This document shows, in pieces, positions 42,412 to 45,573 of a DNA stretch of 64,000 nt. The DNA is taken from positions 185,969 through 249,968 of the forward strand of contig JAEMGR010000010.1 in the NCBI GenBank assembly GCA_016458225.1, read 5' to 3'. The position numbers and the translations under genes were made by a program. Positions within the stretch are counted from its first letter, which is position 1. Every line of letters begins with the position of its first letter. This DNA is from Myxococcaceae bacterium JPH2. Its GTDB lineage: Bacteria; Myxococcota; Myxococcia; Myxococcales; Myxococcaceae. The notes under the pieces are model-generated. The model saw only the letters and a list, made by a program, of their open reading frames with translations. It was not told where the DNA came from and ran no database searches.

Positions 42412-43764
42412 CTATAACGTTGGCGTCTCGTGATTGCTCGCGGCCGCGAGAGACGCCCAGATGTACTGTCCGGAAGCAGCCGCAGCAGGCACTGCTGTCA
42501 GGACGCCCGGAATCCACATAACCGTTCCCGCGGCGTCCGCCACCACCGGCTGCGCATGACGCGCTTCCTCCGGCACCCGGAGATCCACCAACACATCCTG
42601 CAGCTTGCGTTGTCCCGCCCCCGTGCGAATCCGATCGCCCGGCCGGCGGGTCCGCACGGTGAGGGGCCAGCGCGTGCCCGGCCCCAGCGCCAGCCCCGCC
42701 ATGCCCGCCGGAGGCGGCGTGGGCTCGATGGCGAAGTGCCACCCCGTCTCGCCGAGCGAGCCCCGGGCCCCGGGCCCCGCGAGCAACAGGGGTGCGGGCG
42801 CCATCCCGGGTGGGCGCGCACACCGCACGCGACCTCCCGCGGCCTTCAGCCGCAGCCCGCTGCTGAGCGCCGTGGACCCACCCCGCGCCACCGCCTCGTC
42901 CGCGCGCAGCAGCGTCGCGTGGTCCACCAGGGCCCCGGCCTCGGTCACCAACCGCGCGAGCACCCGGCGGCGCAGCGGCGGCTCGAGCGCCCTGACGGCC
43001 ACCGCATCGAGCGCGCCCGGAGCCACCCGCACGCGATCCCAGGCCGCGTCCGCGAGCGCGGCGAGGAGCGCGTCGTCCTCCGCGGCCACGCGCGCGAACG
43101 TCGCCAGGTGCCGCGTCACGGAGAAGCCCGCCGCGGCCGACAGCGCGGGCAGCGCGCCTTGCCGGATGCGCGTGCGAAAGAGCGTGGCGTCCGCGTTCAT
43201 CGGGTCCGTGAAGTACGCGACATCCGCCTCGCGCAGGAAGGCGAGCACGTCCTCGCGCGTGCGCTCAAGCAGGGGTCGGACGAGCGCGCCCCCGGCCGCA
43301 TGGATGCCGCGCGCGCCCCGCAGCGCGCTGCCCCGCGCCAGGCGCATGAGGAGCGTCTCCGCCTGATCATCCGCGGTGTGCCCGGTGGCCACCGCGTCCA
43401 GCCCGCGCTCGCGGCGCAGCGCCTCCAGCGCCTCGTAGCGCGCGGCCCTCGCGCGAGCCTCCACGCCCGCGCCCGGCTCCAGGTGCAGCGCGCGGCGATG
43501 GCAGCGCAGGCCCAGCCCGTACGCGAGGCGGGCGACGGCCTCGCCCTCGCTCGTGGACTCGCGCCGCAGGCCGTGGTCCAGCGTGGCGACCTCCAGCTTC
43601 ATCCCGAGCGCCTCGCTCACGCGCGCGGAGCCCACCAGCAAGGCAGTGGAGTCCGCGCCTCCCGAGACCGCGAGCAGCACGCCGCGACGCTCCAGCCCGT
43701 GACGCCGATAGGCGCGCGAGAGGGTGTTCACCAGCAGTCGGATGGCGGGACGAGTGAGGGGCAT
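42412..43764 (-). CDS. tilS: tRNA(Ile)-lysidine synthase
   Basis: This encodes 450 residues from the ATG at 43764; the start is uncertain because the ribosome binding site is weak and an in-frame start exists 11 codons upstream. It adds lysine to C34 of the AUA-reading tRNA(Ile). The ATP-pyrophosphatase loop SGGADSTAL, then LDHGLRRES, ATGHTADDQAETLLMRLARG and RPLL are typical of TilS. A C-terminal TilS domain is present (RRPGDRI, LQDVLVDLRVPEEAR). Upstream of ftsH, as in many bacteria. Confidence 0.93.
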   Translation of the reverse strand: MPLTRPAIRLLVNTLSRAYRRHGLERRGVLLAVSGGADSTALLVGSARVSEALGMKLEVATLDHGLRRESTSEGEAVARLAYGLGLRCHRRALHLEPGAGVEARARAARYEALEALRRERGLDAVATGHTADDQAETLLMRLARGSALRGARGIHAAGGALVRPLLERTREDVLAFLREADVAYFTDPMNADATLFRTRIRQGALPALSAAAGFSVTRHLATFARVAAEDDALLAALADAAWDRVRVAPGALDAVAVRALEPPLRRRVLARLVTEAGALVDHATLLRADEAVARGGSTALSSGLRLKAAGGRVRCARPPGMAPAPLLLAGPGARGSLGETGWHFAIEPTPPPAGMAGLALGPGTRWPLTVRTRRPGDRIRTGAGQRKLQDVLVDLRVPEEARHAQPVVADAAGTVMWIPGVLTAVPAAAASGQYIWASLAAASNHETPTL

Positions 43765-43790
43765 CGAACAGCTTCGGAATCGAGTGTCCG

Positions 43791-43803
43791 GTAACAAGGT
43801 TAC
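43791..43803. repeat. Short inverted repeat in the tilS upstream region
   Basis: GTAAC (43791-43795) and GTTAC (43799-43803) form a perfect dyad with a 3-base centre. It lies between the tilS start and a rightward promoter, where an operator could act on both. Short enough to be chance. Confidence 0.2.
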
Positions 43804-43817
43804 AGAGCCGCCGTCGG

Positions 43818-43847
43818 TTGAAGGCAGCAGGGGAGGATTCTTATGAT
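43818..43847 (+). promoter_or_regulatory. Predicted sigma-70 promoter
   Basis: TTGAAG (43818-43823), an 18-base spacer and TATGAT (43842-43847) give a fair housekeeping promoter: 4/6 at -35 and 5/6 at -10. Transcription would start near 43855. A strong terminator 190 bases downstream supports a short transcription unit. Confidence 0.45.
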
Positions 43848-43935
43848 CCTCACACCGGGCGCGGATTGGGTGGAAATAGGACGCGCCACCCCGCGTGTTG
43901 AAAGAACGGCTCTGATTTCTGGATGTTGGGCCTAG
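43843..43935 (+). CDS. Possible 30-residue peptide (alternative reading)
   Basis: An ATG at 43843 has GGGAGG 6-7 bases upstream and opens a 30-codon frame ending TAG at 43933-43935 (MILTPGADWVEIGRA, then TPRVERTALISGCWA). The same bases form the -10 box of the predicted promoter, so if that promoter is used the ATG would not be in the transcript. It is a candidate leader peptide or a coincidence. No homologue is recognised. Confidence 0.2.
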   Translation: MILTPGADWVEIGRATPRVERTALISGCWA

Positions 43936-44045
43936 GGGTCCCCCCCCTCCCCCTCTGGGCCCACGGGTCCGCTGAGAGATTCGCTCTCGGCGGTCCCTCT
44001 TTCCGAGACGCCCCGGTCCTCGTCCTTGAGGCCCGGGGCGTTTCC
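43855..44045 (+). ncRNA. Candidate orphan small RNA
   Basis: From a predicted start near 43855 to the terminator at 44008-44050 there is about 190 bases with no convincing gene. It contains a pyrimidine tract (43940-43956), a hairpin with 10-base arms CCGCTGAGAG/CTCTCGGCGG at 43969-43978 and 43984-43993, then the long terminator stem. Size is in the range of 6S RNA and regulatory RNAs, but I see no diagnostic motif of any known RNA family. Its existence is inferred only from promoter and terminator signals. Confidence 0.4.
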
Positions 44046-44050
44046 TTTTG
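44008..44050 (+). terminator. Strong intrinsic terminator
   Basis: ACGCCCCGG (44008-44016) pairs with CCGGGGCGT (44033-44041), extended by CCTC/GAGG inside, and is followed by a T-rich tail TTTCCTTTT (44041-44049). It is oriented rightward but lies far from any rightward gene end, which implies a short transcript upstream. Confidence 0.8.
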
Positions 44051-44090
44051 CGCCCCCCTTTTCGCGCCCCGCTGGACGCCCGCGCGTGCT

Positions 44091-44100
44091 TGAACGTTCA
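44091..44100. promoter_or_regulatory. 10-base palindrome upstream of the small protein pair
   Basis: TGAACGTTCA is a perfect palindrome 36 bases upstream of the -35 box of the following promoter. It could be a regulator site. It shares GTTCA with the Myxococcus LexA consensus but the other half does not fit. Confidence 0.25.
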
Positions 44101-44135
44101 GTATCCGGGGGCACGGAACGAGTCCTCCGAAACCG

Positions 44136-44164
44136 TTGACCCTTCAGGGCGTCTGTCGGATAAC
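44136..44164 (+). promoter_or_regulatory. Predicted sigma-70 promoter of the TIGR04563-like pair
   Basis: TTGACC (44136-44141), a 17-base spacer and GATAAC (44159-44164) make a good housekeeping promoter (5/6 and 4/6). The start would be near 44171, about 50 bases ahead of the first ATG at 44222. Confidence 0.55.
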
Positions 44165-44221
44165 GGCCCCGGTGTGTTCAGGTCGTCACCTCGAATCCGC
44201 CCCGGACCCGGAGACTCAGGT

Positions 44222-44425
44222 ATGGCAGGCACCGACAAGCGCAAGCAGTCGCTGTACTTCCCCGAGGAGATGTTGAAGGAGATCCAGGAGGAAGCGAACC
44301 GGCAGGACCGCTCGCTCTCGTGGGTGGTGCAGCAGGCGTGGAAGATCGCCCGTGAGCGCATCAAGTCATTCCCTGCGGTCAACGACGTGACTGGCGACGA
44401 GCGGCAGGATCCGCGCGAGGAGTAG
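44222..44425 (+). CDS. Small TIGR04563-family protein (first of two)
   Basis: This encodes 67 residues. It opens with MAGTDKRKQSLYFPEEMLKE and continues with N-R-Q-D-R-S-L-S-W-V-V-Q-Q-A-W-K-I-A-R, the pattern of the myxobacterial family TIGR04563. A short beta-strand (QSLYF) followed by two helices resembles the ribbon-helix-helix DNA-binding fold, so a small transcription regulator is possible but unproven. The neighbour 7 bases downstream is a paralogue. Confidence 0.8.
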   Translation: MAGTDKRKQSLYFPEEMLKEIQEEANRQDRSLSWVVQQAWKIARERIKSFPAVNDVTGDERQDPREE

Positions 44426-44432
44426 CGACGCC

Positions 44433-44705
44433 ATGGCCACCACGGACCACCGCAAGCAGTCGCTGTATTTCCCCGAGGAGATGCTCGAGGAGATCCAACG
44501 CGAAGCGAACCGACAGGATCGCTCGCTGTCGTGGATTGTGCAGCAGGCGTGGAAGGTGGCCCGGGCCGATATTCGCAAGATGCCCTCGGTCAACGACGTG
44601 CTGAGCCCGCTGCCTCCTCGGCATGCGTCCCCAGCTCCCGCGCCCACTGCGTCCTCGGCTCCCGTCGTCGCAGCAGCAGCAGCGGGCGAGCCCACGAAGA
44701 CCTGA
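44433..44705 (+). CDS. Small TIGR04563-family protein (second of two)
   Basis: This encodes 90 residues. Residues 7-46 (RKQSLYFPEEMLEEIQREAN onward) match the upstream neighbour almost residue for residue, then a Pro/Ala-rich tail of about 35 residues ends PTKT. It is the product of a tandem duplication followed by divergence of the tail. Ribbon-helix-helix proteins act as dimers, so the two could form a heterodimer; this is inference. Confidence 0.8.
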   Translation: MATTDHRKQSLYFPEEMLEEIQREANRQDRSLSWIVQQAWKVARADIRKMPSVNDVLSPLPPRHASPAPAPTASSAPVVAAAAAGEPTKT

Positions 44706-44722
44706 GGCTCTCCCGCTTCACC

Positions 44723-44753
44723 GGCCCGCCACCTCGCTATCGCGTGGCGGGCC
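44723..44753. terminator. 10-base hairpin over a convergent gene end
   Basis: GGCCCGCCAC (44723-44732) and GTGGCGGGCC (44744-44753) pair perfectly around an 11-base loop. The right arm lies within the last codons of the leftward lipoprotein gene (stop at 44737). No T-tract. Candidate bidirectional terminator. Confidence 0.55.
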
Positions 44754-45573
44754 GCACGGGCAGCGCGCAGTTCTCGAACACGACCCGCGGCGCCTCGGTC
44801 AGCGCCTGCGACGCGTTCGGATACTTCTCCTTCATGTACGCCGCCGTGAGGTTCACGTCCGTGCCGCCCAGCTTGCGGGCCTGCACGGGGTTGCGCGCGG
44901 GATCCTGCCCCACGCTGCCCAGGATGGCGCCGTAGCCATCCCCTCCTCCCAACAAGAAGGCGGACATCGCCACGCGGTAGCGGATGGACTCATCCGTGCG
45001 CGCGGGAATCTGCACGACGCGCGAGCCCACCTTCAGCTCGCGGATCCGCTGGCCCTTCGTGTGCGAGCAGTCCACGCGCACCGACGTCCCCTCCGACACG
45101 TGGAGGAACGCGCCCGAGGGCGACGAGATGTACTGCCCCTCGGAGTACAGCGCGCCCACCGAGTTCTCGAAGACGTCCACGAGCTGCTTCTCGGTGAGGT
45201 CCACCGTCACCACGAGGTTCTCGAAGAGCATGATCTCGTGCAGCACGCCGTCGGTGAGCGGCCCCTTGCGCACGGACGAGCGCGTGACACACAGGCCCTC
45301 CGCGCGCAGCGAGCCACCGTTGACGACGCCCAGCTCGGCGGGCTTGGACGAGCCGTCCTCCGCGTGCAGCAAGGCATCCGCGGAGAGCTGCCCGAGCGCG
45401 TTGTTCGCGTGGCGGGCGAAGGGCTTGTCCAAGAAGACGTCCTCGCCCAGGTACCCCACGACCGCGTCGGGGTCATCCACGAGCGGGGTGCACGAGTCGT
45501 TGTACGCGAGGCAGCCGAGGGCGGGCGCGCAGAGCGCGAGCACCAGCGCGGTGAAGAGTGGACGGCGTTCCAT
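44737..45573 (-). CDS. Lipoprotein consisting of a 5'-nucleotidase C-terminal domain
   Basis: This encodes 278 residues with a lipobox (A-P-A-L-G-C). The mature part is the substrate-binding C-terminal domain of UshA-type 5'-nucleotidases: NNALGQLSADALL, VNGGSLRAEGL, EIMLFENLVVTVDLTEKQL and FLLGGGDGYGA. The N-terminal metallophosphatase domain that carries the active site is absent, so hydrolase activity is doubtful. Its ATG overlaps the stop of the TonB-dependent receptor gene (TGATG), indicating coupled expression and perhaps a role in ligand capture with it. Confidence 0.8.
   Translation of the reverse strand: MERRPLFTALVLALCAPALGCLAYNDSCTPLVDDPDAVVGYLGEDVFLDKPFARHANNALGQLSADALLHAEDGSSKPAELGVVNGGSLRAEGLCVTRSSVRKGPLTDGVLHEIMLFENLVVTVDLTEKQLVDVFENSVGALYSEGQYISSPSGAFLHVSEGTSVRVDCSHTKGQRIRELKVGSRVVQIPARTDESIRYRVAMSAFLLGGGDGYGAILGSVGQDPARNPVQARKLGGTDVNLTAAYMKEKYPNASQALTEAPRVVFENCALPVRPATR

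Follow-up and report, generated by a model that had tools for sequence, protein, structure and literature searches.

The 457 bases between tilS (start at 43764) and a gene of the TIGR04563 family in Myxococcaceae bacterium JPH2 probably encode a small RNA that has not been reported before and represents a new family. Positions are those of the window, that is, the whole stretch of 64,000 nucleotides that was analysed. In favour of a small RNA are the conservation of the unit throughout the order, its covariation, the promoters and terminators that are kept with it, and the lack of a match at any Rfam cut-off. An earlier note on this DNA had proposed an undescribed small RNA of about 190 bases; the small RNA stands, and the length would hold only for a start at the sigma-70 promoter. 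The elements of the locus are the following.

42412-43764, minus strand: tilS, divergent flanking gene outside the RNA; conserved neighbour (synteny), with TIGR02432 and TIGR02433 over cut-off.
43776-43801, plus strand: P0, putative ECF-sigma-like promoter GGAAT-N18-GTT, just upstream of the tilS start codon (opposite strand); spacing exactly 18, spacer sequence variable.
43818-43847, plus strand: P1, predicted sigma-70 promoter TTGAAG-N18-TATGAT (TTGAAG 43818-43823, TATGAT 43842-43847); spacer of 17 in most relatives.
43872-43899, plus strand: P2, putative ECF-sigma-like promoter GGAAA-N20-GTT; GGAAT-N18-GTT in many relatives; the element nearest hairpin 1.
43927-43963, plus strand: hairpin 1 (conserved core), with 43927-43938 paired to 43952-43963 in a 12-bp stem and loop UCCCCCCCCUCCC at 43939-43951; 25-nt core identical across the order, stem covariation.
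43965-43997, plus strand: hairpin 2 with CTCTTT tail; 10-bp inner arms; terminator-like in the window's family, its counterpart being the terminator in Anaeromyxobacter and other families.
44005-44049, plus strand: hairpin 3 (44005-44044) with T-rich tail, intrinsic terminator; GCCCCGG and CCGGGGCG arms kept, middle variable in length.
44222-44425, plus strand: first TIGR04563 gene, ribbon-helix-helix-like (sub-threshold); a neighbour dispensable for the RNA.

The earlier note had made its proposal depend on conservation in close relatives, and both sequence and structure proved to be kept across the order. A DNA search of 60 related genomes recovered the interval in 38, its strongest and often sole conserved part being 43925-43967. 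Among 195 genomes of the phylum, 95 carry the 25-mer GGGGTCCCCCCCCTCCCCCTCTGGG (up to three mismatches allowed), nearly always unchanged and in one copy in nearly all; the reversed 25-mer had no match in all but one of the 195 genomes. No base of the central 25 nt differs between genomes of Myxococcus, Corallococcus, Archangium, Hyalangium and Anaeromyxobacter. A covariance model (R1) matched strongly in 125 of the order's 145 genomes and in a single genome from another order of the class (G163); 48 genomes from the phylum's other classes yielded no convincing match. When a relaxed exact pattern was run over 84,980 species genomes, it matched only Myxococcales-type titles (Myxococcus, Corallococcus, Pyxidicoccus, Archangium, Hyalangium, Citreicoccus, Anaeromyxobacter and unnamed MAGs), besides one Comamonas-titled record with Myxococcus gene order and MAGs titled Deltaproteobacteria or Proteobacteria; in viral contigs the pattern was absent. 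The Comamonas-titled record (L076; Comamonas sp. KCTC 72670, BNCN01000007.1) carries a Myxococcus-type locus with neighbours about 94% identical, and is probably mislabelled.

The pattern search found no second copy in the JPH2 genome, and extra low-scoring matches to the covariance model, considered as further copies, corresponded to a tRNA end, coding sequence or unrelated sequence. One relative (G036) has two tandem C-rich hairpins 98 bases apart (positions 1303 and 1401 of locus L118; G036:C55:28301-28425), each followed by a hairpin, so that one transcript may carry both. The RNA was not found in five small genomes of the order (G020, G033, G044, G049 and G053; 2.1-3.0 Mb), suggesting that it was lost as genomes shrank.

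Hairpin 1 is the most conserved part of the unit. Support for this predicted structure comes from the comparison of homologues, not from fold energy: folded alone, it gives a z of -1.0, unremarkable against shuffles. For the whole segment 43930-44050, the fold reaches -72.7 kcal/mol, with a z of -7.0. Of 564 stem cells in 47 homologues only 2 are unpaired, and four pairs show two-sided changes; these values were reached by no shuffle, and slid structures collapse. A set of 24 diverse hairpins has 98.3% of its cells paired and two-sided changes in 6 of the 12 pairs (21 cells), while the loop stays fixed. Shuffling would be expected to yield 5 two-sided cells and slid structures gave 3 at most; neither the 21 cells nor the 98.3% pairing was attained in any of 500 shuffles. 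Hence, the compensatory changes that the earlier note had suggested looking for across myxobacterial genomes are present. Its second hairpin, with 10-base arms, was also recovered, as hairpin 2; its pyrimidine tract, on the other hand, is the loop of hairpin 1, which the note had missed.

In diverged members, for example 5'-GGGCCCTGAAG-TCCCCCCCTCCC-CTTCAGGGCTC-3' (L204), the stem is rewritten via compensatory changes and the loop remains U-C(6-8)-U-CCC. The C run varies from 6 to 8 bases in L041, L044, L054, L059 and others, whose copies are otherwise intact, the U and the 3' CCC being fixed. Because the stem changes are compensatory and the loop is unchanged, the stem is conserved as a structure and the loop as a sequence, as for a base-pairing seed presented on a hairpin. 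Hairpin 1 also shows the mark of the C-rich-loop small RNAs, a C-run left unpaired in a conserved loop whose conservation exceeds that of the stem. The lower stem is near-identical in most of the order, more than pairing requires, and this could point to a protein ligand. The C-rich hairpin might then bind a protein, as a sponge or scaffold, rather than mRNAs, and a loop and lower stem almost unchanged across the order, with changes in C-run length tolerated, would suit such a role. We find it rather unlikely, however, since diverged lineages show compensatory stem changes with loop letters kept, as for a pairing seed, and we know of no poly-C-binding partner in these bacteria.

Downstream of the core, hairpin 2 alone folds at -21.9 kcal/mol (z -4.9) and hairpin 3 alone at -32.8 kcal/mol (z -6.2), the latter followed by TTTCCTTTT. 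The fold thus bears out the terminator with a T-rich tail first read at this position, and would place the 3' end of the RNA at about 44045-44049. One or two terminator hairpins follow every copy read in alignments. In Anaeromyxobacter and other families, the terminator lies directly 3' of the core (GGAGAGCCGGCAGCGATGCCGGCTCTCCTCTTTT), and in the window's family hairpin 2 and CTCTTT are followed by a second, stronger terminator.

Upstream, the TTGAAG-N18-TATGAT promoter was likewise confirmed: it is the lone sigma-70-like site in 43300-44800 on both strands, where shuffles expect 0.1. The three promoter-like elements were then counted in 49 non-redundant homologues, against shuffles that ignore the shared ancestry of these sequences. 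P0 is present in 24, including Anaeromyxobacter (shuffles 0.08), P1 in 22 as TTG-N20-TAT(ACG)(AC)T at -70 to -137 from the hairpin (shuffles 0.01), and P2 in 37 as GGAA(A/T)-N17-20-GTT (shuffles 0.7). Permuted-letter controls gave 0 for P2 and 0 or 1 over the three elements. In all three, letters and spacing are kept and the bases in between have diverged; in most genus pairs the spacers are too diverged for the motifs to have been kept by mere ancestry. P0 and P2 have a shape that we take to be that of ECF-sigma promoters. Some of the elements may be activator sites, as two or three promoters within 130 bases would be unusual. P0, kept from Myxococcus to Anaeromyxobacter, might provide another start for the RNA or have a different role. 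Transcription from P2 would start at about 43906-43908 and make the RNA about 140 nt long here, against about 95 nt in Anaeromyxobacter; from P1 the RNA would measure about 190 nt, and upstream starts overall would give up to about 190-240 nt. Overall, the locus has the features of a free-standing intergenic unit, with conserved promoter elements and intrinsic terminators, as read from sequence alone.

No gene of normal size lies between promoter and terminator, in agreement with the earlier note. The same note had offered a 30-residue leader peptide, preceded by a good ribosome binding site, as a competing reading. A frame of 30 codons does start in the window at an ATG 6 bases after AGGGGAGG, and some relatives share its stop, a TAG located in the hairpin. 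However, this ATG lies inside the conserved -10 hexamer TATGAT, and in about 30 homologues with the P1 element the frames vary in length between 2 and 100 residues and are unrelated in sequence. In addition, the AGGAGG-like stretch upstream of the ATG is not kept, and the TAG is changed to CAG or lost in other lineages. The peptide is thus highly improbable, and this part of the earlier note has to be abandoned.

The gene order ftsH-tilS-RNA-TIGR04563 is widespread among the loci compared across the order. In most of the order, the RNA adjoins a tandem pair of TIGR04563 proteins (44222-44705 in the window) with sub-threshold ribbon-helix-helix similarity; no mention of this family was found in the literature searched. 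Since most of the order has the RNA on the TIGR04563 strand, 170-340 bases upstream of that gene, it might act in cis, as a leader or attenuator whose hairpins stop or pass transcription into those genes. Yet at least eight loci, from several families, keep the RNA on the tilS side with no TIGR04563 gene next to it: TIGR04563 is 2.2-2.5 kb away in L077, L105 and L106, and was undetected in the DNA examined around the locus in L102, L103, L108, L111 and L115. Two strong terminators also stand between the core and TIGR04563, the invariant C-rich loop pairs with neither terminator in predicted folds, and TIGR04563 has a plausible promoter of its own, noted by eye (TTGACC-N17-GATAAC, 44136-44164). 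Regulation in cis is therefore improbable.

A search of the whole window with the Rfam 15 covariance models, the kind of comparison with known RNA families that had been suggested for this interval, gave no match at cut-off, consistent with an undescribed RNA. A permissive Rfam search of the short stretch returned weak matches, all below cut-off, the best of which, with Pxr (below), were Scr3202 (28.3 bits, cut-off 52); sX13 (RF02232; 23.4 bits, cut-off 50), with the lowest E-value among them (0.0075); the CsrA sponge PrrB/RsmZ, matched on the opposite strand (18.5 bits, cut-off 44); and 6C (RF01066; 17.2 bits, cut-off 47), matching the terminator hairpins and off the C-rich hairpin. In the open literature searched, which excluded subscription papers and RNA-seq supplements, Pxr was the only characterised myxobacterial small RNA, and an unnamed listing of the transcript may exist; a 2025 review of M. 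xanthus has small RNA only in its reference list, as a Pxr citation.

Pxr of Myxococcus xanthus has three predicted stem-loops and a host that lacks Hfq (PMC5684412), and the new RNA is alike in both its three-hairpin layout and its Hfq-less host. A Pxr model (RF01812) is also among the weak Rfam matches, so that a paralogue or diverged copy of Pxr could be envisaged. However, this match reaches 15.4 bits against a cut-off of 80 and covers the two terminator-like hairpins, not the C-rich one, whereas Pxr proper lies at a separate locus of the same genome, with 122.8 bits, and its loop 1 there is CAAAA-like, without a C run. Published Pxr is restricted to the Cystobacterineae and has a predicted sigma-54 promoter (PMC5568312). 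Pxr is sited downstream of the response regulator gene pxrR/nla19; here the neighbours are tilS and TIGR04563, and the elements are of the sigma-70 and GGAAT-N18-GTT types. Pxr thus differs in locus, sequence, loop, promoter type and narrower distribution, and score, locus and loop sequence together refute this identity, to which we give practically no credence. Four relatives (G008, G012, G028 and G029) have tandem arrays of four to five Pxr copies, which fits the paralogues published for Cystobacter.

How the RNA acts can be approached from its loop and its host. Hfq was detected in none of 40 genomes (JPH2 and 39 relatives), where positive controls were detected, in agreement with what is published for myxobacteria (PMC5684412), placing the RNA outside the Hfq-dependent class; ProQ was not found in the JPH2 genome. 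Given these absences and the precedents with C-rich loops, an Hfq-independent repressor of several mRNAs is expected. We consider it likely that the locus encodes a trans-acting small regulatory RNA of about 140 nt, with a gene of its own. Its transcription would depend on a housekeeping sigma-70 promoter together with one or two promoters of ECF-sigma type, with induction in part by an ECF sigma factor, and intrinsic terminators would end a transcript made of an unstructured 5' leader followed by the C-rich hairpin. The 13-nt loop, with its run of 6 to 8 C, would pair with G-rich Shine-Dalgarno sequences (GGGAGGGG and alike) of several mRNAs, block the ribosome and lower the translation of these targets, without Hfq or ProQ.

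Within the loop, CCCUCCC mimics the core of the anti-Shine-Dalgarno sequence, and pairing with GGGAGGGG-type sites is possible in principle. The near letter-for-letter constancy of the loop across the order suggests that many genes are probably switched off via their ribosome-binding sites. In 11 of 11 genomes, GGGAGGGGG-N2-9-ATG is commoner than its reversed control, about 1.4 to 15 times, an excess that G-rich Shine-Dalgarno sequences would give anyway. The JPH2 genome has 15 such sites, about six of them before real open frames. The candidate targets, named by eye, are DusA-like, YvcK-like, polysaccharide deacetylase-like and heme-oxygenase-like proteins and two unknowns. For the YvcK-like protein and one unknown protein, the leaders in relatives are only loosely G-rich, with no clear GGGAGGGGG match kept. 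A wider view, which we hold only tentatively, would make the RNA a pan-order global riboregulator under housekeeping and ECF-stress control, damping the translation of an entire class of mRNAs with extended G-rich Shine-Dalgarno sequences without Hfq or ProQ, its sequence frozen for the age of the order.

Three known RNAs come closest to this proposed trans-acting mode. The sX13 RNA of Xanthomonas (about 115 nt) has an unstructured 5' part and three stem-loops with C-rich loops, and acts independently of Hfq on G-rich motifs near start codons (PMC3771888). The myxobacterial RNA shares the unstructured 5' part, the C-rich loop and, as proposed, Hfq independence, but differs in host lineage, loop sequence and locus, and its conservation sits in one long C-rich loop. 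GsrN of Caulobacter is controlled by the ECF-type sigma-T and pairs through a 5' C-rich loop with G-rich mRNA leaders; it is stabilised by Hfq and activates katG (PMC5869019). By description, both have a C-rich loop and ECF-type control, the latter putative in the myxobacterial RNA; GsrN, however, uses Hfq, which was not detected in the myxobacterial host. Finally, actinobacterial B11 (6C) pairs via C-rich loops with G-tracts of mRNA leaders, e.g. that of eccB4 (PMC10470900), and, according to the title of a paper cited there, 6C binds its targets independently of RNA chaperones. B11 has two C-rich loops, and the myxobacterial RNA has one. Functionally, the new RNA most likely belongs with these C-rich-loop trans-acting small RNAs, namely sX13, GsrN and 6C/B11.

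Pxr is known from one suborder, whereas the RNA described here reaches most of the order's genomes, those of Anaeromyxobacter among them, and its sequence is much more strongly conserved. The locus thus offers a test case for small-RNA action in a large bacterial group without Hfq. The pairing model makes a sharp prediction, namely that mutation of the loop should affect reporters with G-rich leaders, and through the GGAAT-N18-GTT elements a connection with ECF-sigma stress signalling can be tested.
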